NCBI GenBank assembly: GCA_001788415.1
Contig: MGBV01000099.1
Span: 34,430 to 71,294, forward strand
Direction of reading: 5' to 3'
DNA length: 36,865 nucleotides
Source of the DNA: Candidatus Rokubacteria bacterium GWC2_70_16
GTDB lineage: Bacteria; Methylomirabilota; Methylomirabilia; Rokubacteriales; CSP1-6
Part shown: positions 752 to 18,920 of the stretch, in pieces
Position numbering within the stretch: the first letter of the stretch is position 1
Layout of the letters: each line of letters begins with the position of its first letter
Translations under genes and position numbers: made by a program
The notes under the pieces: generated by a model
The model's input: the letters and a program-made list of their open reading frames with translations, nothing else
What the model was told of the DNA's origin: nothing
Database searches by the model: none

Positions 752-2140
752 GTGCATATCCCCCGCCTGGTCATCTCAGCCCCCCATGGCCGGTCGGGCA
801 AGACCACCGTGGCGATAGGGCTGGCAGCCGCCTTCGCCCGGCGGGGGCTGAGGGTCCAGCCCTTCAAGAAGGGGCCGGACTACATCGACCCGAGCTGGCT
901 CGGCGAGGCCGCCGGCCGCCCCTGCCGGAACCTGGATCTCTTCCTGATGGATGCCGACAGGGCCCTGGAGACAGTGGCCTGCGCCTGCCAGTCGGCAGAC
1001 CTGGCCCTCGTCGAGGGCGCTCATGGCCTCTATGACGGGCTCGACGGGGACGGAGCCAATAGCACGGCCCGGCTGGCCAGGCTCCTCCAGGCGCCTGTCG
1101 TGCTCGTCGTGGACGCGACCCGGATGACCCAGAGCGTGGCCGCCCTGGTCCTGGGATTCCGGGACTTCGACCCCGGCGTCCAGCTCGCCGGCGTCATCGC
1201 GAACCAGGTGAGCAGCCCTCGCCACCGCGCCAAGCTGGCCGATGCCCTCGCCCGGCACACGGGCATCCCGCTCCTGGGCGCCCTGCCCCGGGACCCCTCG
1301 CTGTCGATCCCCGACCGCCACCTGGGGCTCGTCCCGAGAGACGAGGACGATGGGCTCCTCCCCGTGGTGGAGCGGGTCCGCGCCGCCGTGGAGGCCTCGG
1401 TGGACGTGGAGGCGCTGCTGGGTCTGGCCCGCGGCGCGCCGGCCCTGCCGGTGGGTCCGCATTGCCCTGAGCGAATGCCTCCCGCCCAGGTGAGGCTCGC
1501 CATCGCCAGAGACCGGGCCTTCACCTTCTACTACATGGAAAACATCGAGGCCCTGCGGGCGGCCGGGGCCGAGCTGGTCTGCCTGGACACGCTCGGGGAC
1601 GGGGCGCTTCCCGACGTCGACGGCCTGTACCTCGGCGGGGGCTTCCCGGAGATGTTCCTCGATGAGCTCGAGGCCAACGAGGCGCTCCGCGCGGACATCC
1701 GCGCAGCGGTTGGCGAGGGTCTGCCGGTCTATGCCGAGTGCGCGGGGCTCATGTACCTGGCTCGGCGCATCGCCTGGCGCGGCCGCTCGGCGGCCATGGT
1801 GGGGGCGCTGCCCTGCGACGTGGAGGTCACGGAAAGGCCCCAGGGGCACGGCTACGTGCGCGCGCGCGTCACGGGCGCGAACCCCTGCTTCCCGGTCGGG
1901 ACTGAGCTCCGCGGCCACGAGTTCCACTACTCCCGAGTGGTGAACCTGGGGCCGGCGCGCTTCGCCTATCGCCTGGAGCGCGGACAGGGCGTGGCCGACG
2001 GGCGGGACGGCCTGGTGGTGGGCAACGTGCTCGCCGCCTATACCCACCTGCACGCCGCCGGCACCGCGGGGTGGGCCGAGAGCCTCGTGGCCCAGGCGCG
2101 CGCCCACCAGGCCCGCCGGCCGGCCAGGGAGGCCCGATGA
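752..2140 (+). CDS. dsrN: Cobyrinate a,c-diamide synthase-like glutamine amidotransferase (DsrN/CbiA family)
   Basis: SAPHGRSGKTTVAIGLAAAF P-loop, KKGPDYIDPSWL, GGGFPE and YAECAGLMYL amidotransferase motifs; GTG start at 752 inside ORF 593..2140; dsr locus context. Confidence 0.88.
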   Translation: MHIPRLVISAPHGRSGKTTVAIGLAAAFARRGLRVQPFKKGPDYIDPSWLGEAAGRPCRNLDLFLMDADRALETVACACQSADLALVEGAHGLYDGLDGDGANSTARLARLLQAPVVLVVDATRMTQSVAALVLGFRDFDPGVQLAGVIANQVSSPRHRAKLADALARHTGIPLLGALPRDPSLSIPDRHLGLVPRDEDDGLLPVVERVRAAVEASVDVEALLGLARGAPALPVGPHCPERMPPAQVRLAIARDRAFTFYYMENIEALRAAGAELVCLDTLGDGALPDVDGLYLGGGFPEMFLDELEANEALRADIRAAVGEGLPVYAECAGLMYLARRIAWRGRSAAMVGALPCDVEVTERPQGHGYVRARVTGANPCFPVGTELRGHEFHYSRVVNLGPARFAYRLERGQGVADGRDGLVVGNVLAAYTHLHAAGTAGWAESLVAQARAHQARRPAREAR

Positions 2141-2490
2141 AGATCGGGGTGATGGTCCAGGAGGGCCCGTATCAGCACCAGGCCTCCGACAGCGCCTGGG
2201 AGTTCGTCCAGGCGGCGCTCGCGCGGGGACACGAGGTCGTCGGCGTCTTCTTCTACACCGACGGCGTGCACAACGTGAACCGGTTCATGAACCCGCCGGG
2301 CGAGCGGGTGATCGGCAAGCGGTGGTCCGAGCTGGGGGCCCAGGGGGTGCCGCTGGTGGCGTGCGTCACCGACTCGACGTACCGGGGCGTCACCCAGGAG
2401 CTCGCCGTCGCCAACGTGAAGATCTCCGGGCTGGGCAGCCTGGCCGAGTTCATCCAGCAAGCCGACCGCTTCGTGACGTTCGGCGACTGA
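2137..2490 (+). CDS. dsrE: DsrE-like sulfurtransferase subunit (TusD/DsrE)
   Basis: MKIGVMVQEGPYQHQASDSAWEFVQAALARGHEVVGVFFYTDGVHN...VPLVACVTDSTYRGV with the conserved Cys; start overlaps dsrN stop. Confidence 0.88.
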   Translation: MKIGVMVQEGPYQHQASDSAWEFVQAALARGHEVVGVFFYTDGVHNVNRFMNPPGERVIGKRWSELGAQGVPLVACVTDSTYRGVTQELAVANVKISGLGSLAEFIQQADRFVTFGD

Positions 2491-2504
2491 GAGGGGGGAG
2501 CACA

Positions 2505-2813
2505 ATGAGGGGGGTCGGAGTTCTTGGCGTAACGCTTCTGGTTGTCCTTGCGTCGGTGGGCGTCTCGGCCCAGATGCCGATGGAACACAAAGGCACAATC
2601 TCGAAGATCGACACGAAGGCGAAGACCTTCGCCGTCAAGGACGAGAAGGGCAAGGAGGTGACGATGCACGCGGAGGATGTCAAGGCTTTGGCGGGCCTTC
2701 GGGTGGGTGACAAGGTCGTCGTGAAGATGACCGCGAAGGACGGGAAGAACATGGCCAAGGAGGTGCTGAAGGAAGCTACCGGACGGGCTCCCGCGCCTGG
2801 GTATGGAAAATGA
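2505..2813 (+). CDS. Small secreted beta-rich protein of unknown function
   Basis: Signal peptide MRGVGVLGVTLLVVLASVGVSAQ followed by KGTISKIDTKAKTFAVKDEKGKEVTMHAEDVKAL; GA-rich RBS upstream of ATG 2505. Confidence 0.6.
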   Translation: MRGVGVLGVTLLVVLASVGVSAQMPMEHKGTISKIDTKAKTFAVKDEKGKEVTMHAEDVKALAGLRVGDKVVVKMTAKDGKNMAKEVLKEATGRAPAPGYGK

Positions 2814-2841
2814 CACGCTCCGCATTGCGAAGGAGGAAGTC

Positions 2842-4146
2842 ATGACGCCGCAATCCTCCGGCAAGACCGCCTGGGCCAGTGTCTCCTGGATCGGCGGACT
2901 CACCGTCTTGATGCTCGCTCTTCTCTCCCTTCCCGACGTCGCACTGGCTCAACAGAAAGCAAGAACGGTGGACGATCTCGCGAAGATGTACGACGTCGCC
3001 TCATGCAAGCAGTGCCACGCCAAGGTCTACGAGGAGTGGGAGAAGTCAACGCACGCGCGCTCCCTCATCGGAACCGGCCGGACCATCGGGGGATTCCAAG
3101 GAATGATCAGGGCCGGCCTCATGGGGGCATTCACGAAATCGGGGGTGAAGGATGTAGGGGACGTCAAAGTCGAGCACCTCGCGCAGTGTTTCAAGTGCCA
3201 TCTTCCGCAGATTTCGGATGCCACCGATGAGGTCGCGCGGGAACTCGTCAAGGCATACCTGGATGCTGATCGGGCCACGCTCGGCAAGGTCAACGTCAAC
3301 TGTCTCGTGTGCCACAACACGAAGGCGATTCTGCACAAGTGGCAGGATGGGGAGCCCGAGAAGGGCGTCGTCTACGGCTCCAAGGACGGTCCGCATCCCG
3401 ACAAGTACCCGGCGATGAAAAACAGCGTGGTCATGAAAGAGGCGGCGATGTGTGGCCAGTGCCACGGCACGGGGCCGAACTTCGAATTCCCGCAGCCTTC
3501 GCAGTGCGCGACCGCGTACGGGAGCTATCTCCACGCCTATATTCCCGCGGGCGGCACAGAGACGTGTCAGGACTGCCATATGAAGAAGGACGGCAAGGGG
3601 CACCTCATGCCCGCCTACCGCGACCCGGATATGGCGAAGAGGGCCGTGGATGTCGACGTGGAGGCGAGGGGATACAAGTTCCTGCTCAAGGCAGGGGACT
3701 CAATCCCGACAGCCGTGGTGACGGTGAAAATCACGAATAAGGCAGGGCATCGAATCCCTGATGGCTGACCCTCGCCCCAGAGAGCGGTCCTGGACGTGAC
3801 CGCGAAGACAAGCGATGGCAAAGAGATCTTCAGGGATTCAAAGATCTATATGCCGCAAGCCACCAATAGTCGTGGTGATGCGATGGTCTACGGGGCGCAC
3901 TTCAAGATGGGATATACCCGCGACACGAGCCTTCAGCCGCTTCAGACCAGGGTGGAGACCTACGAAATCAAGTTCCCGTATGAAGACGTCGAGAAGGAAA
4001 AGGGCAAACCCAGGGTGAGAGAGATACGGGCCAGGGAGATGGACGTGACGGTTGAGCTGCGGTACCAGCCTGATCCTGCGCCAGGTGAAGCGGGAAAGGA
4101 CAGTTTCGTTCTGCATAAGACGACGAAGAAAGTCAGCATCAAATAG
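2842..4146 (+). CDS. Periplasmic pentaheme c-type cytochrome with in-frame TGA (candidate selenocysteine at codon 309)
   Basis: AAGGAGG RBS, ATG 2842, signal peptide, five CxxCH motifs (CKQCH, CFKCH, CLVCH, CGQCH, CQDCH); reads GHRIPDG-TGA-PSPQRAVLDVTAKTSDGKEIFRDSKIYMPQ in one frame to the stop at 4146 (track splits it into 2803..3768 and 3796..4146). Confidence 0.75.
3784..3803 (+). promoter_or_regulatory. Candidate bacterial SECIS-like hairpin downstream of the in-frame TGA
   Basis: GCGGTC-CTGGACGT-GACCGC: perfect 6-bp stem, 8-nt loop containing GG, starting 15 nt after TGA 3766-3768. Confidence 0.5.
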
Positions 4147-4164
4147 AGCGGCTGGGGGTGGTGT

Positions 4165-4587
4165 ATGGAAGATCTGTCGGGGCACGGTGAGCTCCAGGTG
4201 GAGCCCCGCGGGGCTCCACCGAAGAAGGTTTTGGTGCTGATGCGCAAGGCCCCTTATGGAACCCTCTACAACTGGGAGGGCCTGCAGGTGCTCCTCATCA
4301 TGGGGGCCTACAAGATGCAGGGTCTGGTGGACATCGCCGTGGCCTTCGTGGAGGACGGGGTCTTCGCGATCACCCAGGGGCAGGACCCGAGCAGCCTGGG
4401 GATGAAGGCGATCGCGAAGACCTACCCGGCGCTCCCGGACTTCGAGGTGGACCGCTTCTACGTCGACGGGCAGTCACTGGCCGATCGGAGCCTGACCCTG
4501 GATGACCTGGTGATCCAGCCCGAGATCCTCGACGCGGCGGGGATGGCCCGGCTCTTGGAGGAGCAGGACGCGGTCCTGCCGTTCTAG
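4165..4587 (+). CDS. dsrF: DsrF-like sulfurtransferase subunit (TusC/DsrF)
   Basis: KKVLVLMRKAPYGTLYNWEGLQVLLIMGAYKMQGLVDIAVAFVEDGVFAI; alternative GTG start at 4198. Confidence 0.85.
   Translation: MEDLSGHGELQVEPRGAPPKKVLVLMRKAPYGTLYNWEGLQVLLIMGAYKMQGLVDIAVAFVEDGVFAITQGQDPSSLGMKAIAKTYPALPDFEVDRFYVDGQSLADRSLTLDDLVIQPEILDAAGMARLLEEQDAVLPF
4197..4220. repeat. Perfect 24-nt palindrome in the dsrF 5' region
   Basis: GGTGGAGCCCCGCGGGGCTCCACC equals its own reverse complement. Confidence 0.9.
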
Positions 4588-4600
4588 AGGAGGCCGAGTG

Positions 4601-4894
4601 ATGCTCTTCACGGTGAACAAGTCGCCTTACCTGCACGGCAACCTGGAAGGCTGCCTGCGGCTGGCCCCGGCCGGGACGCCGCTCGTGCTCTACGAGGACG
4701 GGGTGTACGCGGCGGCGGCGGGCACGCGCGTGGAAGAGCTGATGCGCCAGGCCCTGGCCCGGCACCCCGTCTATGTGCTGGAAGCCGACCTCAGGGCCCG
4801 CGGGCTCGGGCGCCTGATCGAGGGCGTGCGGGTGATCGACTACGCGGGCTTCGTGGAGCTGGTGGAGCAGCATCCCGTGGTGCCCTGGCTGTGA
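4601..4894 (+). CDS. dsrH: DsrH-like sulfurtransferase subunit (TusB/DsrH)
   Basis: MLFTVNKSPYLHGNLEGCLRLAPAGTPLVLYEDGVYAAAA; position directly after dsrF. Confidence 0.83.
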   Translation: MLFTVNKSPYLHGNLEGCLRLAPAGTPLVLYEDGVYAAAAGTRVEELMRQALARHPVYVLEADLRARGLGRLIEGVRVIDYAGFVELVEQHPVVPWL

Positions 4895-4930: not shown

Positions 4931-6340
4931 ATGCTGGTGGTGCAGCTGGCGTGTCCCAAGTGCGGCTTCGTCATCGAGCAGTACCCGGCCGAGCAGCTCG
5001 AGACGGACTCCCAGAAGCAGAAGCGCTACCAGTACCTCCGGAAGAAGCAGACGCTCTGCCCGAGCTGCCTCACCCAGACCTCCAAGCTCGAGGAGCGCCG
5101 GGTGGAGGCCCAGGCCGGGGCCGAGGCGAGCGTGCTCGCGGCGGCCCAGGCGCCCGCCGAGGCCGGCGCCCCCGAGGCGGACGAGGGGCCGACGCCATTC
5201 TGCGACGAGCTCGGGCGGGGGCCCTGGCCGAGCCACGTGAGGGAGCTCAGGCGAACCCGCTACCACATGCAGATGTACGAGGAGGCCCTGAGGCTCCGCC
5301 AGACCCAGTGGGGCTTCGGCGGCTACGTCTCGCTGCCGGGGGTGGCCGCCGGGCTTGCGGTGCGCGCCTCGGCCCGCCCCGAGATCGCCAAGGGGGCCAA
5401 CTTCCTCCGGATCCTCCCTCCCGGCGGCAGCTTCTACTCCACCGAGACCCTCGGCAAGGTCTGCGACATCGCCGACCGCTACGCCTATGGCCTCCTGCAT
5501 CTGCACAGCACCGGCGGGAACATCGAGATCCTGGGGATCCCCACCGAGCAGCTCAAGGAGGTGGTCTCCGCCCTGAACGCCCAGGGGCTGGACGTGGGGT
5601 CCACCGGCGATGCCTACCGCAACACCGTGGAATGCGTCGGCCCGGCGCGCTGCGATGCGACCCTGATCGACACGCTCGGGATCCGCGACGCATGGTACCG
5701 GCGCTTCCTGGACGACGTGCAGTTCCCGCGCTTCCCCCACAAGCTCAAGATCAAGATCTCCGGCTGCCCTAACGACTGCACCCGCTCCGTCCAGAAGTCG
5801 TGCATCGCGCTCATCGGCGTCTTCCGCGACGCCCCGAAGATCGACCACGAGCGGCTGGCCGCCTGGGTCGAGGGGGGAGGCGACGCGGCCCACATCGCGC
5901 GGATGTGCCCGCCCCGGGCCCTTGACTGGGACGGGCGGCGGCTTGCGATCGACCAGGAGGCCTGCACCCACTGCATGTACTGCATCAACAAGTGCCCGGC
6001 CATCCGGCCGGGGGACGACCGCGGGGTGGCCGTGCTGGTGGGCGGGAAGCTCCGCGGCAAGTACGGCCCGCTCCTGGGACGGGTGCTGGTCCCCTTCGTT
6101 CCCTTGGCGCCGCCCGAGTACCGCGAGCTGTTCGACCTCCTCCACAGGATCGACGAGGTCTTCGACGAGCACGCCCGCCGGAAGGAGCGCCTGGGCGATT
6201 TCCTCTTCCGGATCGGGATGGACCAGTTCTCCCGGCTCGTGGGGATCGAGCCCTCGGCCCATCAGATGGCCGAGCCCCGGAGCAATGTCTTCTATCACTG
6301 GGCCGCCGGCCCGCCCGGCAGCGACGCGGCGGAGGTGTAG
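4931..6340 (+). CDS. dsrA: Dissimilatory sulfite reductase alpha subunit, copy 1, with N-terminal CxxC...CxxC extension
   Basis: GRGPWPSHV, ECVGPARC (CX5C), SGCPNDC (CX3C), CTHCMYCINKCP ferredoxin domain; extra N-terminus MLVVQLACPKCGFVIEQY...KKQTLCPSCLTQTSKLEERRV. Confidence 0.95.
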   Translation: MLVVQLACPKCGFVIEQYPAEQLETDSQKQKRYQYLRKKQTLCPSCLTQTSKLEERRVEAQAGAEASVLAAAQAPAEAGAPEADEGPTPFCDELGRGPWPSHVRELRRTRYHMQMYEEALRLRQTQWGFGGYVSLPGVAAGLAVRASARPEIAKGANFLRILPPGGSFYSTETLGKVCDIADRYAYGLLHLHSTGGNIEILGIPTEQLKEVVSALNAQGLDVGSTGDAYRNTVECVGPARCDATLIDTLGIRDAWYRRFLDDVQFPRFPHKLKIKISGCPNDCTRSVQKSCIALIGVFRDAPKIDHERLAAWVEGGGDAAHIARMCPPRALDWDGRRLAIDQEACTHCMYCINKCPAIRPGDDRGVAVLVGGKLRGKYGPLLGRVLVPFVPLAPPEYRELFDLLHRIDEVFDEHARRKERLGDFLFRIGMDQFSRLVGIEPSAHQMAEPRSNVFYHWAAGPPGSDAAEV

Positions 6341-6342
6341 CC

Positions 6343-7395
6343 ATGCCCGGAATCGGCGTCGCGCCAATGGAAGCGAATCTCCCTCCCATCGTGAGGCGCA
6401 ATTACGGCGCGTGGGTGTGGCACGAGGTGATCCGGCCCGGCGTCCTGAAGCACGTGTCGAAGAGCGGGGAGGCCTGCTTCACCGTGCGAGCGGGGATGCC
6501 CCCCAACGCCCGGGTGTCGACCGCGCTCGCCCGCCGGATCTGCGAGGTGGCCAACCGGTTCTGCGGCGGCTACCTCCGCATCACCCGGCGCCACAGCCTG
6601 GAGCTGGTGGGGGTGGCCGAGGCCGAGCTCGGCGCGGCGATCGCGGCGCTCCGCGAGATCGGGCTGGCGGTGGGGGGGGCCGATCGCACCTTCCACAACA
6701 TCGTCTGCTGCACGGGCTGGATCCATTGCCAGTTCGCCGCCACCGATGCGCCCGCCATCGCCAAGGCGATCTCGGACGGGCTCTGGGAGGATTTCCAGTC
6801 GGAGGGGTACCCGGCCAAGCTGAAGATCTCCATCGCCGCCTGTGTCAACCAGTGCGGCGAGGGCTCCACTGCCGACATCGGGGTGATCGGCATCCATCGC
6901 GACCTGCCGCGGGTCAACGACGCGGAGGTGGCGAAGTGCGAGGTGCCGCTGATCGTCTCCATCTGCCCCACCGGCGCCATCCGTCCGAAGCCCCCCAAGA
7001 GCGTGCAGGTGGACCCCAGGCGCTGCATCCACTGCGTGGCCTGCGTGGGGCAATGCGTCGGCATGCCCATCGGGGACCCCGAGACCGACGGCGTGGCGAT
7101 CTACGTCGGCGGCAAGGCCGGCAACCAGGGGAGCGGCCCCGCCTTCGGCAAGCTGGCGATCCCGTATCTGCCCAACCGCCCGCCGCGCTGGCCGGAGGTC
7201 GTCCAGGCCGTGACGGGCATCATCGGGGTGTGGACGAAGGGGGCCCGGAGGGACGAGCGCATCGGCGACTGGATCAGCCGGATCGGCTGGGAGCGCTTCT
7301 TCGACAAGACAGGGCTGCCGGTGAGCGACAAGCACCTGGACGGCTATGTCCTCTGGCCCATGGCGGCGCGCACCGGGGTGCGGTTCCGCTGGTAG
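6343..7395 (+). CDS. dsrB: Dissimilatory sulfite reductase beta subunit, copy 1
   Basis: MPGIGVAPMEANLPPIVRRNYGAWVWHEVIRPGVLKHVSKSGE, CTGWIHC, CVNQCGEG, ferredoxin motif CIHCVACVGQC, PPRWPEV, IGWERFF; start at ATG 6343 inside ORF 5992..7395. Confidence 0.95.
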   Translation: MPGIGVAPMEANLPPIVRRNYGAWVWHEVIRPGVLKHVSKSGEACFTVRAGMPPNARVSTALARRICEVANRFCGGYLRITRRHSLELVGVAEAELGAAIAALREIGLAVGGADRTFHNIVCCTGWIHCQFAATDAPAIAKAISDGLWEDFQSEGYPAKLKISIAACVNQCGEGSTADIGVIGIHRDLPRVNDAEVAKCEVPLIVSICPTGAIRPKPPKSVQVDPRRCIHCVACVGQCVGMPIGDPETDGVAIYVGGKAGNQGSGPAFGKLAIPYLPNRPPRWPEVVQAVTGIIGVWTKGARRDERIGDWISRIGWERFFDKTGLPVSDKHLDGYVLWPMAARTGVRFRW

Positions 7396-7443
7396 GCCAA
7401 CCCCGCGCATGACGGGAGGGGACACGGTGAGGAGAGAGCGACG

Positions 7444-8856
7444 ATGCTGATGGTGCAGCTGGCCTGTCCCAGGTGCGGCTTCGTCATCGAGCAGTACGGG
7501 GCCGCCCAGCTGGAGGCGGACACCCAGAAGCAGAAGCGCTACCAGTACCTCAGGAAGAAGCAGACCCTCTGCCCGAGCTGCCTCAGCCAAACCGCCAAGC
7601 TCGAGGAGCGCCGGGTGGAGGTGGAGGCTGGGCCCCAGGCCGAGCTCATGGCCGAGGCCGAGGCGCCGCCCGAGGCGGTACCTGCGGGCGAGGCCGTCGC
7701 GCCGACGCCGCTATGCGACGAGCTGGAGCGCGGGCCCTGGCCCAGCCACGTGACCGAGCTCAAGCAGACGCGGTACCACATGCAGATGTACGAGGAGGGC
7801 CTCCGCCAGAAGCGAACCCAGTGGGGGTTCGGCGGTTACACCTCGATTCCCGGTGTGGCCTCCGGGATCCTCATGCGGGCCTCGGCCCGGCCCGACATCG
7901 CCAAGGGCGCCAACCTGGTCCGCGCCTTCTGTCCCAGCGGGACGTTCTACTCCACGCAGACCTTCCGGGCCCTCTGCGACGTGGCGGACCGCCACGGCTA
8001 CGGCATCCTGCACCTCCATGCCACGACCTGCGACATCGAGGTCCTGGGGGTGCCCAAGGAGGAGCTCCGGGCGACGGTGGACGAGCTGGTGGCGGCCGGC
8101 CTGGACGTGGGCTCCACCGGGGATGCCTACCGCAACTGCCAGGAGTGCATCGGCCCCTTGCGCTGCGAGATGGTCCTGGTGGACTCGGTGGCCATGCGCC
8201 AGGCCTACTTCACGCGCTTCCTGGACGACGTCCAGTACCCGCGCTTCCCCCACAAGATCAAGTTCAAGCTCTCGGGGTGCCCCAACGACTGCACGCGCTC
8301 GCAGCAGAAGGGGGACATCGCCATCGTCGGGGTGTTCCGGGATCCGCCGACGATCGACGCGGCCCGGCTCGAGGGCTGGGTCGCTGGGGGCGGGGACATC
8401 GCCCACATCGTCAGGATGTGCCCGACGCGAGCCATGGAGTGGGACGGCCGGCGGCTGGCCATCGACGCCGACGGCTGCGTCCGCTGCATGTACTGCATCA
8501 ACAAGTGCCCGGCCGTCCGCCCGGGGGGCGATCGCGGCGTGGCCGTCCTGGCCGGCGGCAAGATGCGGGGCAAGTATGGGCCCCTCCAGCCCTTCGTCAT
8601 CGCGCCATTCGTCCCCGCCGTCCCGCCGGACTTCACGGAGGTCTTCGACCTCTGCGCCAAGATCACCGATGTCTACGACGAGCACGCGCGCCGCAAGGAG
8701 CGGCTGGGGGACTTCATCTACCGCACGGGGATCGACCAGTTCTGCCGCCTGGTCGGCGTGCCGTCGGCCCCTCAGCAGATGGTCTCTCCCCGCATCAATC
8801 CCTTCTACCACTGGACGCCCGAAGAGCTGCAGGCCTCCCGGAAGGAGGCCGACTGA
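7444..8856 (+). CDS. dsrA: Dissimilatory sulfite reductase alpha subunit, copy 2, with N-terminal CxxC...CxxC extension
   Basis: ERGPWPSHV, ECIGPLRC, SGCPNDC, CVRCMYCINKCP; N-terminal MLMVQLACPRCGFVIEQY...LCPSCLSQT. Confidence 0.95.
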   Translation: MLMVQLACPRCGFVIEQYGAAQLEADTQKQKRYQYLRKKQTLCPSCLSQTAKLEERRVEVEAGPQAELMAEAEAPPEAVPAGEAVAPTPLCDELERGPWPSHVTELKQTRYHMQMYEEGLRQKRTQWGFGGYTSIPGVASGILMRASARPDIAKGANLVRAFCPSGTFYSTQTFRALCDVADRHGYGILHLHATTCDIEVLGVPKEELRATVDELVAAGLDVGSTGDAYRNCQECIGPLRCEMVLVDSVAMRQAYFTRFLDDVQYPRFPHKIKFKLSGCPNDCTRSQQKGDIAIVGVFRDPPTIDAARLEGWVAGGGDIAHIVRMCPTRAMEWDGRRLAIDADGCVRCMYCINKCPAVRPGGDRGVAVLAGGKMRGKYGPLQPFVIAPFVPAVPPDFTEVFDLCAKITDVYDEHARRKERLGDFIYRTGIDQFCRLVGVPSAPQQMVSPRINPFYHWTPEELQASRKEAD

Positions 8857-9908
8857 TGCCGGGCGTCGGCCTCCCCCCGCTCGAACGGAACCTGCCGCCC
8901 ATCGTCCTCCGCAACTACGGCAAGTGGCTGGACCACGAAGAGCCGAGACCGGGCGTCCTCAAGCATGTGGCCGAGAGCGGCGAGGCATGCTACACCGTGC
9001 GCGCCGGGATGCCGACGAATGCGCGGGTCTCCACCACGCTCGCCCGCAAGATCGCGGACCTCGCGGACGACTTCGCCGGCGGGCACCTGCGCCTGACCCG
9101 GCGCCACAGCCTGGAGCTGGTCGGAGTGGACCCGGCCCGGATCGACGAGCTGATCGAGCGGCTCCGGGGTCTCGGGCTGCCCGTGGGCGGCACCGGCCGG
9201 ACATTCCGCAACACGGTGTCCTGCACCGGCTGGATCCACTGCCAGTTCGCTGCCACCGATGCCCCGGCGGTGGCCAAGGCCATCTCCGACGAGCTGTACG
9301 AGGACTTCCTCACCGAGCGCTACCCGGCCAAGCTCAAGATCTCCATCTCCGGCTGCGTGAACCAGTGCGGCGAGGGGTCCACCGCCGACATCGGGATCGT
9401 CGGCATCCACCGGGACCTGCCCCGGGTCATCGACGAGGAGGTGGCCCGCTGCGAGATCCCGCTGATCGTCTCGGTCTGCCCCACCGGCGCCATCAGGCCC
9501 AAGCCGCCGAAGAGCGTCCAGGTGGATCCCGAGCGCTGCATCCACTGCGTGGCCTGCGCCGCGCCGTGCCAGGGGATGCAGATCGGCGACCCCGACACCG
9601 ACGGCGTCGCGGTCGTGGTTGGCGGCAAGGCGGGCAACTCGGGGAACGGCCCGGCCTTCGCCAAGTTCGTGATCCCCTACCTCCCGAACAGCCCGCCGCG
9701 CTGGCCCGAGGTCACGCGGGCGGTGAGGCAGATCGTGGAGGTGTGGGTGAAGGGAGCCCGGCGGGACGAGCGGATCGGCGACTGGATCGCGCGGATCGGC
9801 TGGGACAAGTTCTTCGAGAAGGCCGGGCTGCCGATGAGCGACAAGCTCCTCGACGGCTACGTCCTCTGGCCCATGTCGGCCCGTACCGGGGTGCGGTTCC
9901 ACTGGTAG
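8856..9908 (+). CDS. dsrB: Dissimilatory sulfite reductase beta subunit, copy 2
   Basis: MPGVGLPPLERNLPPIVLRNYGKWLDHEEPRPGVLKHVAESGEACYTVRAG, CTGWIHC, SGCVNQCGEG, CIHCVACAAPC; ATG overlaps dsrA2 TGA. Confidence 0.95.
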   Translation: MPGVGLPPLERNLPPIVLRNYGKWLDHEEPRPGVLKHVAESGEACYTVRAGMPTNARVSTTLARKIADLADDFAGGHLRLTRRHSLELVGVDPARIDELIERLRGLGLPVGGTGRTFRNTVSCTGWIHCQFAATDAPAVAKAISDELYEDFLTERYPAKLKISISGCVNQCGEGSTADIGIVGIHRDLPRVIDEEVARCEIPLIVSVCPTGAIRPKPPKSVQVDPERCIHCVACAAPCQGMQIGDPDTDGVAVVVGGKAGNSGNGPAFAKFVIPYLPNSPPRWPEVTRAVRQIVEVWVKGARRDERIGDWIARIGWDKFFEKAGLPMSDKLLDGYVLWPMSARTGVRFHW

Positions 9909-9941: not shown

Positions 9942-10259
9942 ATGGCGACGGTAGAGCTCGAAGGCAAGACGATGGAGCTGGACGAGGATGGGTTCCTGCA
10001 GAATCCGGATCTCTGGTCCGAGACGGTGGCCCAGTACTTCGCCGACCAGGAGGGGCTGGGGCAGCTCACGGACGAGCACTGGAAGGTGGTGAAGATGATC
10101 CGCGGCTACTACCTGCAGTTCGGCGTCGCCCCCATGATCCGCAAGGTCGTCAAGGACACCGGCTTCGACCTCAAGTACATCTACCAGCTCTTCCCCTCGG
10201 GGCCGGCCAAGGGGGCCTGCAAGGTCGCCGGGCTCCCCAAGCCCACGGGCTGCGTGTAG
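9942..10259 (+). CDS. dsrC: DsrC sulfur carrier protein
   Basis: C-terminal swinging arm GACKVAGLPKPTGCV with both conserved cysteines (C-X10-C-V end). Confidence 0.95.
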   Translation: MATVELEGKTMELDEDGFLQNPDLWSETVAQYFADQEGLGQLTDEHWKVVKMIRGYYLQFGVAPMIRKVVKDTGFDLKYIYQLFPSGPAKGACKVAGLPKPTGCV

Positions 10260-10275: not shown

Positions 10276-10851
10276 GTGACGCTGCCCGCGGGCGCCCGCG
10301 CGGCGGGCGGGCCAGGTCTCGAGGCGCTGGCGGCACGGCGGAGCGCCATTGCCGGCCGGTGGCTGGCGCTGACGCTCGAGGGCTACCCGGCCCCCACCGC
10401 GCGCCTGCTGGCGCGCGAGACGGACCCCTTCCGCAACCCCGTCGGGCACACCCTCAGGCAGGCGCTGTCTGGCCTCGCGGAGGAGCTTGTCGGGGCCATG
10501 GACCCCGCCAGGGTCGCCGCCCTCCTGGACAGCGTCGTGAGGATCCGCGCCGTCCAGGACGTGAGCGCGAAGGAGGCGGTGAGCTTCGTGTTCCTGGCCA
10601 GGCAGGCCCTTCGCGAAGAGATCGACAGCGGCGGGGGACTGCCGGCCGGAGACGGGCTGGCGGCCGTGGAGGCGCGGGTCGACGAGATGGCGCTCTCGGC
10701 CTTCGACCTGTTCATGCGCTGCCGCGAGCAGATCCACGCGATCCGGGCCGACGAGGCCCGACGCCGGACGGCTCTCCTGGACCGCATCCGCGAGCGGGCC
10801 GGCCGGCCCGGGAGCGAGCCCGCCGGGGCGGACCCGGGAACTGCGCCGTGA
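10276..10851 (+). CDS. RsbRD N-terminal domain-like protein associated with dsr
   Basis: All-helical protein (RSAIAGRWLALTLEGYP...DPFRNPVGHTLRQALSGLAEEL); position between dsrC and dsrM resembles RsbRD_N proteins of dsr loci. Confidence 0.65.
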   Translation: MTLPAGARAAGGPGLEALAARRSAIAGRWLALTLEGYPAPTARLLARETDPFRNPVGHTLRQALSGLAEELVGAMDPARVAALLDSVVRIRAVQDVSAKEAVSFVFLARQALREEIDSGGGLPAGDGLAAVEARVDEMALSAFDLFMRCREQIHAIRADEARRRTALLDRIRERAGRPGSEPAGADPGTAP

Positions 10852-11840
10852 GCGCGCTGGCCCCCCTGGCCCTCGTCCTGCTCCTGGCCGGGCTGGCCCT
10901 GGCCGGCGGGCAGTTCTCCGGGCTCCGCCCCGTGCTCGGCGTGCTCCTCCCCTACGCGGCCTTCGTCACCTTCCTCCTCGGGGTGTGCCATCGCATCCTC
11001 GTGTGGGTGCGAGCGCCTGTCCCCTTCCGCATCCCCACCACCTGCGGCCAGCAGCGCTCCCTGCCCTGGATCAGGCAGAGCCGCATCGAGAACCCGTCCT
11101 CGACAGCTGGCGTCGTGGCGCGCATGGCGCTGGAGGTGTGTCTGTTCCGGTCGCTGCTCCGCGGCAGCCGGGCCGAGCTGCGGGAAGGGCCCCGGCTGGT
11201 GTACGCCGACGACCGGCTCCTGTGGCTGGCGGCGCTGGCCTTCCACTGGTCGCTTCTCGTCGTCGTCCTGAGACACCTGCGCTTCGTCCTGGAGCCAGTG
11301 CCCGCGGCGATCCGCACGCTGGCCGCGGTGGACGGGTTCTTCCAGCTGGGCGCCCCGGGGCTCTACGCCACGGATGTCGTCCTCGTGGCCGCGCTGGGCT
11401 ATCTCCTCTGGCGGAGGCTCGCAAACCCGCAGCTCCGGTACCTGTCGCTGTCCGCCGACTACTTCGCGCTCTACCTGCTGCTGGGGCTGGCCGCCTCCGG
11501 CCTGCTCATGCGGCATGTGGTCCGGACGGACGTCGTGGCGGTGAAGCAGCTCGCCCTCGGCCTCGTGACCCTGTCCCCCATTGTCCCCGAGGGCGTGGGC
11601 TCCCTGGCGCTCCTGCACCTCGTCCTCCTGAGCACGCTCGCCGCCTACTTCCCCTTCAGCAAGCTCATGCACATGGGCGGCATCTTCCTGAGCCCGACGC
11701 GGAACCTGGCCAATACGAGCCGGGCGCATCGCCACGTCAACCCCTGGAACGCGCCCGTCGCCACCCACAGCTACGAGGAGTGGGAGGACGAGTTCCGGGA
11801 CAAGATCAGGGCGGCCGGCCTGCCGCTCGAGAAGGGATAG
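10848..11840 (+). CDS. dsrM: DsrM, membrane cytochrome b subunit of the DsrMKJOP complex
   Basis: Multiple TM segments, NarI-like; LHLVLLSTLAAYFPFSKLMHMGGIFLSPTRN; GTG start overlaps upstream stop. Confidence 0.9.
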   Translation: MSALAPLALVLLLAGLALAGGQFSGLRPVLGVLLPYAAFVTFLLGVCHRILVWVRAPVPFRIPTTCGQQRSLPWIRQSRIENPSSTAGVVARMALEVCLFRSLLRGSRAELREGPRLVYADDRLLWLAALAFHWSLLVVVLRHLRFVLEPVPAAIRTLAAVDGFFQLGAPGLYATDVVLVAALGYLLWRRLANPQLRYLSLSADYFALYLLLGLAASGLLMRHVVRTDVVAVKQLALGLVTLSPIVPEGVGSLALLHLVLLSTLAAYFPFSKLMHMGGIFLSPTRNLANTSRAHRHVNPWNAPVATHSYEEWEDEFRDKIRAAGLPLEKG

Positions 11841-11842
11841 CC

Positions 11843-13462
11843 ATGGCGGAAGAGGCCCCGGCCCCCGCGCAGCTCGCGCAGGTCGACTACCGGCCGCCGG
11901 CGCGGGACTGGCGGGAGGCCGCCGTCGACTTCCGCAAGGGGACCTACTGCTACAGCGCCGCGCCCAAGAACCTCCAGTACCTGGGGCTGCCCAATCCGCG
12001 ACCGTGGCAGCCCCACGACGCGGACTGGAAGCTCCCCCCCGACTGGAAGCAGACCATCCTCGCGGGCATGAAGGACAGGCTCGAGCGCTTCCGGTCCTTC
12101 CGCCTGTTCATGGACATCTGCGTGCGCTGCGGGGCCTGCGCCGACAAGTGCCACTTCTACCTCGGCACCGGCGACCCCAAGAACATGCCGGTGTTGAGGG
12201 CCGAGCTGATGCGCTCGGTGTACCGGCGCTACTTCACCCTGCCCGGCCGGCTGCTGGGCGGGCTCGCGGGCGGGCGGGAGCTCACCGAGGACGTGCTCAA
12301 GGAGTGGTTCTACTACTACCACCAGTGCACGGAGTGCCGCCGCTGCTCGGTCTTCTGCCCCTTCGGGATCGACACGGCGGAAGTGACCATGATGGGGCGC
12401 GAGCTGCTGACCCTGGTGGGCTGCAACATCAACTGGATCCTCGAGCCGGCGGCGAATTGCTACCGGACGGGCAACCACCTCGGGATCCAGCCCCATGCCT
12501 TCAAGGACAGCGTCGACTTCGCCGTGGACGAGCTGGAGGAGATGACCGGCATCCGCGTGGAGGCTCCCATCAACAAGAAGGGCGCCGAGATCCTGTACGT
12601 GATCCCGTCGGCGGAGACCTTCGGGACGCCCCACTACTACACGCTCCTGGGCACGCTGCTCCTCTTCCACGCCATCGGTCTGGACTACACGCTCAGCGCG
12701 TATGCCTCCGAGGGCGGCAACTTCGGCCTCTTCACCTCCCACGAGGTGATGAAGCGGCTGAACGCCAAGATCTACGCCGAGGCCCGGCGGCTGGGGGTCA
12801 AGTGGATCCTCGGCGGCGAGTGCGGCCACATGTGGCGCGTCGTGCACCAGTACATGGACACCATGAACGGCCCGGCGGACTTCCTGGAGGAGCCCGTCTC
12901 GCCGGTGACGGGCACGCGGTTCGAGCAGGCGCGGTCCACGAAGATGGTGCACATCTGCGAGTTCACGGCCGATCTCATCCGCGAGGGCAAGCTCCGGCTC
13001 GACCCCCGGCGGAACGACCACTGGGTCGCGACCTTCCACGACTCCTGCAACCCGGCCCGGGCCATGGGGCTCCTCGAGGAGCCGCGCTACATCCTCCGGA
13101 GCGTGTGCCAGCGCTTCCACGAGATGCCCGAGAGCACCATCCGGGAGCGGACCTTCTGCTGCGGCAGCGGGTCGGGTCTCGGCACGGACGAGAATTTCGA
13201 GATGCGCATGCGGGGCGGCTTCCCCCGGGCCAATGCCGTGAGGCATGTGCAAGACCGGTTCGGCGTGAACCTGGTGGCGTGCATCTGCGCCATCGACAAG
13301 GCCACGCTCCCGCCGCTCCTGGAGTACTGGGTGCCGGGGATGAACGTGGCCGGCGTGCACGAGCTCGTGGGCAATGCCCTCGTGGTCGACGGCGAGAAGG
13401 CGCGGACCCAGGACCTGCGCGGCCAGCCCCTGGTCTCGCCGGAGGCACCCGCCGGTGCGTGA
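11843..13462 (+). CDS. dsrK: DsrK, HdrD-like Fe-S subunit
   Basis: CVRCGACADKCHFYLGTGD, CTECRRCSVFCPFGID, CCGSGSG and related CCG-domain motifs; ATG 11843 inside ORF 10985..13462. Confidence 0.93.
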   Translation: MAEEAPAPAQLAQVDYRPPARDWREAAVDFRKGTYCYSAAPKNLQYLGLPNPRPWQPHDADWKLPPDWKQTILAGMKDRLERFRSFRLFMDICVRCGACADKCHFYLGTGDPKNMPVLRAELMRSVYRRYFTLPGRLLGGLAGGRELTEDVLKEWFYYYHQCTECRRCSVFCPFGIDTAEVTMMGRELLTLVGCNINWILEPAANCYRTGNHLGIQPHAFKDSVDFAVDELEEMTGIRVEAPINKKGAEILYVIPSAETFGTPHYYTLLGTLLLFHAIGLDYTLSAYASEGGNFGLFTSHEVMKRLNAKIYAEARRLGVKWILGGECGHMWRVVHQYMDTMNGPADFLEEPVSPVTGTRFEQARSTKMVHICEFTADLIREGKLRLDPRRNDHWVATFHDSCNPARAMGLLEEPRYILRSVCQRFHEMPESTIRERTFCCGSGSGLGTDENFEMRMRGGFPRANAVRHVQDRFGVNLVACICAIDKATLPPLLEYWVPGMNVAGVHELVGNALVVDGEKARTQDLRGQPLVSPEAPAGA

Positions 13463-13850
13463 CCGGGGTTTGCTGGTCGGCGGCCTGGCCCTCTTCGTGG
13501 CCGTGATCACCTTCCCGGTCTGGTACAACGTCGCCGCCGGGACGCCCACGCGGGGCCCCGAGCCCGTGCGCCCCGCCGGGACCGGGCGCTGCGTTGGGCC
13601 CACGGAGTACATGCGCGCTTCCCACATGAGCCTGCTCATGGCGTGGCGCGACGACGTGGTGCGAGGGCAGGACCGCAACTTCGTGGGCCCCGACGGGAAG
13701 ACCTACGCCAAGAGCCTCACGCGCACCTGTCTCGGCTGTCACACCAGCAAGGCGGAGTTCTGCGACCGCTGCCACGACTACGGCGCCGTGAAGCTCACCT
13801 GCTGGGAGTGCCACATCGACCCCGCCTCACTCCGGAAGGCTCAGCGATGA
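13455..13850 (+). CDS. dsrJ: DsrJ, triheme c-type cytochrome
   Basis: CLGCH, CDRCH, CWECH motifs; single N-terminal TM; GTG start 13455; between dsrK and dsrO. Confidence 0.9.
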   Translation: MRDRGLLVGGLALFVAVITFPVWYNVAAGTPTRGPEPVRPAGTGRCVGPTEYMRASHMSLLMAWRDDVVRGQDRNFVGPDGKTYAKSLTRTCLGCHTSKAEFCDRCHDYGAVKLTCWECHIDPASLRKAQR

Positions 13851-14614
13851 GCATGGATCGCCGGGCTTTCCTGGGCGCGGCCGGGCTCTCCGCGCTGGCC
13901 ATGACCGGGACCCAGTCCCTCGAGGCCCTGGCCGGCGCCGGCCGCCCGGAGACAACGCCCGAGGGGCGCCGCGCCCCGCGCTGGGGCATGGTCATCGATC
14001 TGCGGAAATGCCTCGAGGACCGGGGCTGCACCGATTGCATCGCCGCCTGCGAACGCGCGCACAACGTGCCGCGGCTCGAGTCGCGGGCCCACGAGGTGAA
14101 GTGGATCTGGCGGGAGCCCTACGAGCGGGCCTTCGCCCAGCGCGGGAGCGGGTACGGGGACGAGGCCCTCAGGGGCAAGCGCGTCCCCGTGCTCTGCAAC
14201 CACTGCGACAATCCCCCGTGCGTGCGCGTGTGCCCCGTCAAGGCCACGTGGAAGCGGGGAGACGGCATCGTCATGATGGACTGGCACCGCTGCATCGGCT
14301 GCCGCTACTGCATGGCGGCCTGTCCCTACGGGGCGCGGAGCTTCAACTGGCTCGACCCGCGCCCCCGGGTCAAGGAGGTGAACCCGGATTTCCCCACGCG
14401 GACCAGAGGGGTCGTCGAGAAATGCAACTTCTGCGAGGAGCGGCTCGCCCAGGGGCGCGGGCCGGCCTGCGTGGAGGCGTGCCGGGAGCGGGCCCTGACT
14501 TTCGGGGACCTGCGGGACCCCGGCTCGGAGGTGCGCGGGCTCTTGCGGAGCCGTCACGCCATGAGGCGGAAGCCCGAGCTCGGCACCGAGCCGAGCGTCT
14601 ACTACCTGGCATGA
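13847..14614 (+). CDS. dsrO: DsrO, periplasmic Fe-S protein
   Basis: Tat-like MSMDRRAFLGAAG leader; CTDCIAACERAHN, CNHCDNPPCVRVCPVKAT, CIGCRYCMAACPYGAR. Confidence 0.93.
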   Translation: MSMDRRAFLGAAGLSALAMTGTQSLEALAGAGRPETTPEGRRAPRWGMVIDLRKCLEDRGCTDCIAACERAHNVPRLESRAHEVKWIWREPYERAFAQRGSGYGDEALRGKRVPVLCNHCDNPPCVRVCPVKATWKRGDGIVMMDWHRCIGCRYCMAACPYGARSFNWLDPRPRVKEVNPDFPTRTRGVVEKCNFCEERLAQGRGPACVEACRERALTFGDLRDPGSEVRGLLRSRHAMRRKPELGTEPSVYYLA

Positions 14615-14632
14615 GGAGGCAGGGAGGCGGCC

Positions 14633-15832
14633 GTGCTTGACAAGGGGCTCAGTGGGGGCGGGCGGTACTGGGCCTGGCTCGGCGCCCTGGCCGCGCTGAT
14701 CGTCGCGGGCGCGCTGGCCTACCAGCGGCAGCTCACGCTGGGGCTGGGGATCACGGGGCTGAGCCGGGATGTGACCTGGGGTCTCTACATCGCCCAGTTC
14801 ACCTTCCTGGTCGGGGTCGCGGCCTCGGCCGTCGTGGTGGTCCTGCCCTATTACCTGCACGACTACCGCGTCTTCGGCAAGATCACGATCCTCGGCGAAT
14901 GCCTCGCCGTCTCCGCCGTGGCCATGTGCCTGCTCTTCGTCTTCGTGGACATGGGCCAGCCCGCGCGCGCGCTGAACGTGCTCCTGTACCCGACGCCCAA
15001 CTCCATCATGTTCTGGGACATGCTCGTGCTCGCCGGCTACCTGGCGCTCAACGCCGTCATCGCCCGGGCCACGCTCTCGGCCGAGCACCGGGGCGTGCCG
15101 CCGCCCCGGTGGCTCCGGCCCGTCATCGTGCTCTCCATTCCCTGGGCCGTCAGCATCCACACGGTCACGGCGTTCCTGTACAGCGGGCTCCCCGGACGGC
15201 ACCTGTGGCTGACCGCGCTCCTGGCGCCGCGCTTCCTCGCCTCGGCCTTCGCCTCGGGGCCCGCCCTGCTGATCCTCCTGGCCATGCTCCTCCGCCGACT
15301 CACGGGCTTCGACGTCGGCCGGGAGGCCCTCCAGAAGCTCGGGCTGATCGTCGCCTACACGATGACCGTCAACGTGTTCTTCGTGCTGGTGGAGCTCTTC
15401 ACGGTCTTCTACAGCCAGGCGCCCGAGGCGATGCACCACTTCGAGTTCCTGTTCCTCGGACTCGAGGGCCAGGCGGGGCTGGTCCCGTGGATGTGGGCCT
15501 CGGTGGTCCTGGCCATGATGTCGCTGGGCCTGCTCCTCACGCCGCGCTGCCGCCAGGACATGCGGCTCCTGGCCGCCGCCTGCGCCATGGTGTTCGCCTC
15601 GCTGTGGATGGACAAGGGCCTCGGCCTCATCGTCGGCGGCTTCGTGCCCTCGCCCCTGGGAGAGGTGACGGGCTACGCCCCGACGCTGCCGGAGGTCGCC
15701 ATCGCGCTCGCCATCTGGGCCGTGGGCTCGCTGCTGGCCACCGTGCTCTTCAAGGTCGTCGCCGCCGTGAGGGGGGAGCCGAGTGGCCCCGACCCCCACT
15801 CCCGCTGGGCCCGGGCCCCCGTCGAGCCATGA
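14633..15832 (+). CDS. dsrP: DsrP, NrfD-family integral membrane protein
   Basis: About 10 hydrophobic segments, ITGLSRDVTWGLYIAQFTFLVGVAASAVVVVLPYYLHDY; locus context. Confidence 0.92.
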   Translation: MLDKGLSGGGRYWAWLGALAALIVAGALAYQRQLTLGLGITGLSRDVTWGLYIAQFTFLVGVAASAVVVVLPYYLHDYRVFGKITILGECLAVSAVAMCLLFVFVDMGQPARALNVLLYPTPNSIMFWDMLVLAGYLALNAVIARATLSAEHRGVPPPRWLRPVIVLSIPWAVSIHTVTAFLYSGLPGRHLWLTALLAPRFLASAFASGPALLILLAMLLRRLTGFDVGREALQKLGLIVAYTMTVNVFFVLVELFTVFYSQAPEAMHHFEFLFLGLEGQAGLVPWMWASVVLAMMSLGLLLTPRCRQDMRLLAAACAMVFASLWMDKGLGLIVGGFVPSPLGEVTGYAPTLPEVAIALAIWAVGSLLATVLFKVVAAVRGEPSGPDPHSRWARAPVEP

Positions 15833-18488: not shown

Positions 18489-18920
18489 ATGCCGCGCTAC
18501 TTCGACATCGGCTCCACCGTGCTGATCGTGGTGGGCTACGGCATCCTCGCCGAGGCGGAGGACCGGCCGACGGCCTACGAGCTCAAGCGGATGATCGACT
18601 CGCGCGGCGAGGGCACGGAGAGCCGCAGCGCCGTGGTGGTCACCGACATGTGGGTGCTGAACCAGGAGATGGCCGATCTCTTCCCGGCCATCGCCGTCGG
18701 CGGCCCCGGCGTCAACGCCTTCACGGCCCAGATCTACGAGGAGCTGCCCGTGGCCGTCGCGCGCGATCAGCGGCTCTTCGTCCAGATGAACCAGGACGCG
18801 GGCAAGCGGGTGGCGCTCTGGGGGATGGACCAGTCAGCCACCCGGGAGGCCGTGGAGCTGTTCATCAAGGATGGGCTCCTCGACCGCCTCCTGGACCTGG
18901 TCTGGCACCGCGACCGCTGA
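18489..18920 (+). CDS. Hypothetical protein
   Basis: Complete 143-aa ORF with start 2 nt after the upstream stop; family not recognised. Confidence 0.6.
   Translation: MPRYFDIGSTVLIVVGYGILAEAEDRPTAYELKRMIDSRGEGTESRSAVVVTDMWVLNQEMADLFPAIAVGGPGVNAFTAQIYEELPVAVARDQRLFVQMNQDAGKRVALWGMDQSATREAVELFIKDGLLDRLLDLVWHRDR

Follow-up and report, generated by a model that had tools for sequence, protein, structure and literature searches.

DsrAB is central to the sulfur cycle, its genes are widely used as a marker, and the N-terminus is near-uniform among the DsrAs compared here; the question raised by this locus is what the additional residues at the start of its first DsrA are, and what they might do. 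The window, meaning the whole stretch of DNA analyzed (36,865 nucleotides of genome G000, Methylomirabilota), contains an open reading frame with an ATG start (4931-6340, plus strand) that encodes DsrA1, a protein of 469 amino acids. A first-pass annotation had placed some 90 residues ahead of the DsrA core, with two CxxC pairs 30-odd residues apart, and had stated that DsrA of Desulfovibrio and Archaeoglobus has no such domain. These observations were borne out with slight adjustment: solved DsrA chains align with DsrA1 only from residue ∼86-88, so the extension comprises residues 1-86 (nucleotides 4931-5188), the two pairs are separated by 31 residues, and Archaeoglobus TPLLDELEKGPWPS aligns with DsrA1 TPFCDELGRGPWPS, the beginning of the core. 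The extension is laid out as a 59-residue module followed by a 27-residue Ala/Glu/Pro linker:

4931-5107, plus strand: Cys4 module of DsrA1, residues 1-59 (from conservation, dN/dS, and AF2)
4952-4963, plus strand: first CxxC of the module, C8-P-K-C11, with cysteines invariant in all six Rokubacterial DsrA
5009-5056, plus strand: basic stretch, residues 27-42, SQKQKRYQYLRKKQTL (pI 10.7, 6 K/R, no D/E)
5057-5068, plus strand: second CxxC, C43-P-S-C46, with invariant cysteines; the next residue is Leu, not Gly
5108-5188, plus strand: acidic Ala/Glu/Pro-rich linker, residues 60-86 (pI 4.05, dN/dS ∼0.5)
5189-6340, plus strand: DsrA1 sulfite reductase core (NIR_SIR 3.3e-27, NIR_SIR_ferr 1.2e-10)

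Each of the six Rokubacterial dsrA genes whose 5′ end could be read has the same extension. They represent all five Rokubacterial genomes in which dsrA was found, with two genes in the window and one each in Rokubacteria CSP1-6, GWA2_70_23, NC_groundwater_1477, and a further genome, G090. Fifty of the 63 alignment columns of residues 1-63 are invariant in the six proteins, as are C8, C11, C43, and C46 and the basic residues K29, K31, R32, R37, K38, and K39. Chance occurrence of the CxxC pairs is excluded by their presence in six genes, on the paralogue as well as in four further genomes. The first-pass annotation had also allowed for an internal start with no conserved coding signal upstream; DsrA elsewhere does begin near the TP..DEL motif, which would make the upstream frame spurious, but this is exceedingly improbable given the good Shine-Dalgarno sequence at the upstream ATG (AAGAGGAGAACGAGC-ATG), a GC3 of 0.96 in the DsrA1 frame, conservation of the frame in six genes, and a module dN/dS of mostly ∼0.1 between species (0.09-0.22), similar to that of the A2-type core (0.05-0.13). 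The purifying selection acting on the module effectively rules out an internal start. Little constraint was seen in the linker, where dN/dS between species was ∼0.5 (0.25-0.67). The start of the second copy, DsrA2, likewise has a good Shine-Dalgarno sequence.

To define the distribution of the module, DsrA was sought by HMM in 95 Methylomirabilota genomes and found in six, with the module in five of five from the window's family; the sixth, G004, belongs to another family and has an ordinary DsrA without it. The module was absent from the DsrA of 27 genomes outside the window's family (G004 included) in a sample of 388 genomes across bacteria, and from 12 more DsrA-bearing genomes of another phylum, as judged by query range, for a total of none in 39 non-Rokubacterial DsrA-bearing genomes examined. 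The module is restricted to Rokubacterial DsrA within this sample, in which the other lineages with reported early-diverging DsrAB (Verrucomicrobia SbV1, Hydrothermarchaeota, the second copies of Moorella, and Diaforarchaea) were not selected by name. Mobile or free-standing homologs were also sought: no stand-alone copy was present in the 95 Methylomirabilota genomes at E≤0.01, a module-only profile returned, beyond these DsrA genes, only short chance-level fragments from the 388 broadly sampled genomes (E 0.015-0.1), the module was not found in plasmids, and viral contigs gave no match for either the module or the DsrA core. One scan of a large contig collection, which detects close relatives only, returned three Rokubacterial loci and nothing else.

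The cores that follow the extension are themselves distinctive. The siroheme/[4Fe-4S] cysteines (C-x5-C ... C-x3-C; C235/C241 and C279/C283) are present in all six Rokubacterial DsrA, and the cysteines of the inserted ferredoxin domain (C326, C345, C348, and C351) align with those of all 25 other DsrA. Core identity to other DsrA is about 31-40%, with short deletions around residues 112 and 156, and in a tree of the cores the six Rokubacterial proteins form a single clade with full support, well removed from the remaining DsrA. With 326 bits (DsrA1) and 333 bits, both short of its cut-off of 392.85, TIGR02064 was still by far the best family; by that rule the protein counts as a divergent DsrA and not as an equivalog. 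Additional cysteines were also observed: Cys91 at the start of the core (nucleotides 5201-5203) is present in all six Rokubacterial DsrA, the position being Leu in 25 of the 25 others; Cys355 (nucleotides 5993-5995), likewise in all six, extends the ferredoxin motif to CxxCxxCxxxCP where other DsrA have M, L, F, or Y; and at positions 163, 196, 232, 404, and 434 the five A2-type proteins have a Cys that A1 lacks.

DsrA2, whose extension the first-pass annotation had not mentioned, lies 2.5 kb downstream of DsrA1 as part of a tandem duplication, dsrA1-dsrB1-dsrA2-dsrB2 (4931-9908), the remaining parts of which are:

6343-7395, plus strand: dsrB1 (reading frame), 74-76% identical to B2-type Rokubacterial DsrB
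7444-7620, plus strand: Cys4 module of DsrA2, residues 1-59, 86% identical to the DsrA1 module
7621-7701, plus strand: linker of DsrA2
7702-8856, plus strand: DsrA2 core, 90-99% identical to its orthologs
8856-9908, plus strand: dsrB2 (reading frame), 90-96% identical to other Rokubacteria

The orthologs of the DsrA2 core are the single DsrA of G089, G090, and G081 and the DsrA read in G071. From the 86% identity of the module, identity between DsrA1 and DsrA2 drops to 33% in the linker and 66% in the core, and the DsrA1 linker is 25-33% identical to those of other Rokubacterial DsrA. Divergence is evident in the A1 core, with dN/dS of 0.36-0.44 relative to the others, and not in the A1 module; the module ratios of the A1-A2 pair (0.46) and the A1-G090 pair (0.57) are uninformative because they rest on few synonymous changes. 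Between A1 and A2, the module has a dS of 0.16 and the core one of 0.60, a difference that suggests gene conversion. The dsrA of G090 (loci L011/L015) is chimeric, being A1-like in its upstream DNA and at almost all informative sites to about +150, and A2-like at informative sites from about +178. Recombination within the module-coding DNA appears to have fused the A1 upstream region to an A2 core in this genome, and the chimera is what recombination through the common module would leave behind if it removed the A1 core together with B1. Since CSP1-6 has kept a B1-type gene upstream of A2 (85% identical to B1, 78% to B2), the sequences indicate a dsrAB duplication older than the split of these Rokubacterial species.

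As to what the module is, the first-pass annotation had proposed a zinc-ribbon or rubredoxin-like domain. The four-cysteine metal knuckle fits both the sequence and an AF2 model of moderate confidence; the likeness to rubredoxin did not survive. HMM searches placed the module in no Pfam or NCBIfam family above cut-off. The best matches to zinc-finger families (E 0.002-0.003) were far under the curated cut-offs, the weak matches including the Pfam families Zn_Ribbon_TF, zf-HYPF, zf-Mss51, and Zn_ribbon_TFIIB. Searches of PDB sequences gave matches of knuckle length only, and Foldseek comparison of the module model with the PDB and viral libraries gave no similar fold. The model itself (pLDDT 70.7, pTM 0.50, five sequences in the alignment; pLDDT ∼80 for residues 1-30) consists of strands at residues 3-7 and 14-19 and helices at 27-38 and 46-64, with the first CxxC in the hairpin turn, a helix across the basic stretch, and another beginning at the second CxxC (C46). 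The second CxxC at a helix start makes the predicted arrangement closer to a treble clef than to a two-hairpin ribbon, and the module is probably a structural Zn(Cys)4 fold, treble-clef-like or ribbon-like, with the metal inferred. It shares with zinc ribbons and treble-clef fingers four cysteines as two CxxC, the first in a predicted β-hairpin knuckle, but differs in falling below every curated cut-off (best E ∼0.002) and in having no fold match. With rubredoxin it shares two CxxC ∼30 residues apart, the first as CxxCG-aromatic. Rubredoxin, however, has Gly after each CxxC, and the module departs from this two-CxxCG pattern, its motifs being CP[KR]CG and then CPSCL in six of six Rokubacterial DsrA, and the AF2 model places a helix at the second; rubredoxin matches were lacking in Pfam and PDB sequences at E≤10, as was any match in fold. 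A full-length AF2 model of DsrA (pLDDT 41.7) was too poor for use.

The module is encoded within a dsr cluster ordered dsrN, dsrE, multihaem cytochrome, dsrF, dsrH, A1B1A2B2, dsrC, RsbRD-N protein, dsrM, K, J, O, and P, from which the genes bearing on its possible role are:

2137-2490, plus strand: dsrE (TIGR03012 3.7e-27, over cut-off, at G000:C99:36572-36910)
4165-4587, plus strand: dsrF (tusC-like), pI 4.4, a candidate partner (PF02635 4.5e-19; TIGR03010 6.1e-27, with 93.9 bits just under the cut-off of 94.15)
4598-4894, plus strand: dsrH (tusB-like; PF04077 4.8e-25, TIGR03011 4.5e-25)
9942-10259, plus strand: dsrC with both C-terminal cysteines (GACKVAGLPKPTGCV), pI 5.0, a candidate partner (TIGR03342 6.9e-36)
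10848-15832, plus strand: dsrM, dsrK, dsrJ, dsrO, and dsrP (by families and position)

DsrK (NF045796 8.5e-216) and DsrO (NF045797 6.3e-93) were assigned by family, DsrM by Nitrate_red_gam, and DsrP by NrfD, and dsrJ, which had no family match, by position and conservation in relatives. DsrL was not found between the dsrM and dsrP genes (10848-15832), and HMM searches recovered no member of the DsrD family from the five Rokubacterial genomes or from G004, which is of the same class and only 76% complete. AprA is present in five of five Rokubacterial genomes, in pieces in two. Earlier reports describe Rokubacteria as lacking DsrL and DsrD (PMC7596348, PMC10591310), and another terms their Dsr system chimeric (PMC10504309).

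Several other features of the cluster were recorded. The multihaem cytochrome gene (2842-4146, plus strand) matches NF040886, “cyt_C_like_Sec (seleno)protein ExtKL” (1.7e-118 over the portion that precedes the TGA), and its frame runs through an in-frame TGA (3766-3768) to 4146; the product is probably a selenoprotein, given this continuation, and a tRNA-Sec over cut-off is present in the genome (G000:C150:4858-4951). This gene and a small ORF set dsrE apart from dsrF and dsrH (2137-4894, plus strand), and in relatives the gap between dsrE and dsrF holds different genes or almost nothing. The protein with an RsbRD N-terminal domain, encoded between dsrC and dsrM (10276-10851, plus strand; PF14361 1.7e-15), is likewise conserved in G004, whose dsr cluster has an ordinary DsrA. 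Downstream of the cluster, a 143-residue protein (18489-18920, plus strand) had no NCBIfam match.

A constrained module followed by a little-constrained linker is what a tethered, folded domain would be expected to show. The reading tentatively favored here, at somewhat less than an even chance, is that the extension is a Zn(Cys)4 module whose flexible linker makes it an arm on which an acidic Dsr protein docks; metal, docking, and partner (DsrC or DsrEFH) are all inferred. The two CxxC pairs would clamp the β-hairpin knuckle and the helix start, with the metal holding the fold, and the invariant basic helix (SQKQKRYQYLRKKQ) would bind a soluble, acidic Dsr protein, for which the best candidate would be DsrC, or the DsrEFH complex that loads DsrC. 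The flexible acidic linker might then let the bound partner reach the active-site cleft of DsrAB. Docking of DsrC, DsrEFH, or an electron donor had also been suggested in the first-pass annotation. Docking is favored by the invariance of the four cysteines and six basic residues, by the pI of the basic stretch (10.7) against those of DsrC (5.0) and DsrF (4.4), by the occurrence of the module on Rokubacterial DsrA without exception and never as a free-standing copy in the 95 or the 388 genomes, by the predicted hairpin knuckle and helices, and by the setting, a lineage in which DsrD is absent by HMM and DsrL is reported absent. Sharing of the module by A1 and A2 and its exchange by recombination, between cores at 66% identity, would be expected if both enzymes use one partner; alternatively, this sharing could be gene conversion without functional meaning. 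Against docking, DsrABs elsewhere work with DsrC without any such arm, and the model of the module is of moderate confidence and resembles no fold found by Foldseek.

Small metal modules are often structural, and the main rival is that the module acts in assembly, stability, or maturation (of the A2B2 heterotetramer, or in insertion of siroheme or siroheme amide) with no transient partner. The module is always on DsrA, dsrN is in the cluster, and the core has diverged strongly (about 31-40% identity with other DsrA, and the deletions near 112 and 156), all of which suit such a role; the long, fast-evolving flexible linker better suits a mobile arm than a fixed structural element, and we regard assembly or maturation as unlikely, at a chance of roughly one in five. 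Less likely is a redox role, in which the four Cys would bind Fe in the manner of rubredoxin or act as a redox dithiol. Electrons would then pass through the module to or from the ferredoxin domain of DsrA in place of DsrL, which Rokubacteria are reported to lack (PMC7596348, PMC10591310). Two CxxC motifs and the extra Cys in the Rokubacterial ferredoxin motif (CxxCxxCxxxCP, elsewhere M/L/F/Y) are in its favor, but CPSCL lacks the rubredoxin Gly, searches at E≤10 gave neither a rubredoxin family nor a rubredoxin structure, and the second CxxC lies at a helix start in the AF2 model, which leaves it improbable. Marginally less probable still is a regulatory or sensing element that would tune DsrAB activity as a switch responding to redox state or zinc, or by binding nucleic acid, and might for instance stand in for DsrD, an activator. 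The failure to find DsrD in the five Rokubacterial genomes, the basic stretch, and weak matches, none of them significant, to the zinc fingers of proteins that bind nucleic acids would fit, yet DsrD was not found in G004 (76% complete) either, where DsrA has no module, and a nucleic-acid binder tethered to an enzyme would be unusual.

Whichever role applies, the enzyme is known, and the domain architecture on it appears to be new. As a conserved, lineage-specific module on a catalytic subunit, residues 1-59 provide a concrete, small target for identifying the metal and the Dsr partner, as well as a simple sequence signature of Rokubacterial dsrA in metagenomes, and they may show how DsrAB finds partners in uncultured soil and groundwater Rokubacteria without the usual ones. 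Literature searches for DsrA extended at its N-terminus or by a zinc domain returned nothing relevant. The main-text passages searched in PMC10504309, PMC10591310, and PMC7174415, which discuss early-diverging DsrAB, make no mention of an N-terminal module.

Compared with the DsrA of Archaeoglobus fulgidus (3MM5) and Desulfovibrio vulgaris (2V4J), Rokubacterial DsrA shares the core from TP..DEL..GPWPS to the C-terminus, the siroheme-[4Fe-4S] and ferredoxin cysteines, and the pairing with DsrB and DsrC, but adds the 86-residue N-terminal extension, Cys at 91 and 355, and short deletions. The system as a whole shares its lineage and gene set with the early-diverging DsrAB of Rokubacteria/Methylomirabilota treated in PMC10504309, PMC10591310, and PMC7174415, with DsrEFH, DsrN, and DsrMKJOP and neither DsrD nor DsrL. 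DsrL, like the module, is an added element beside DsrAB in DsrEFH-containing organisms, and is described in PMC7596348 as having a long flexible linker that bears a terminal domain; it is, however, a separate flavoprotein with FeS clusters, whereas the module has four Cys and is fused to DsrA. It is conceivable, though we consider it rather unlikely, that the Rokubacteria have arrived at a third solution to the partner problem of DsrAB, in which a fused Cys4 module, not DsrL or DsrD, would recruit a sulfur carrier or electron partner, an early-diverging DsrAB would work with DsrEFH, and the module would be exchanged between tandem isoenzymes.
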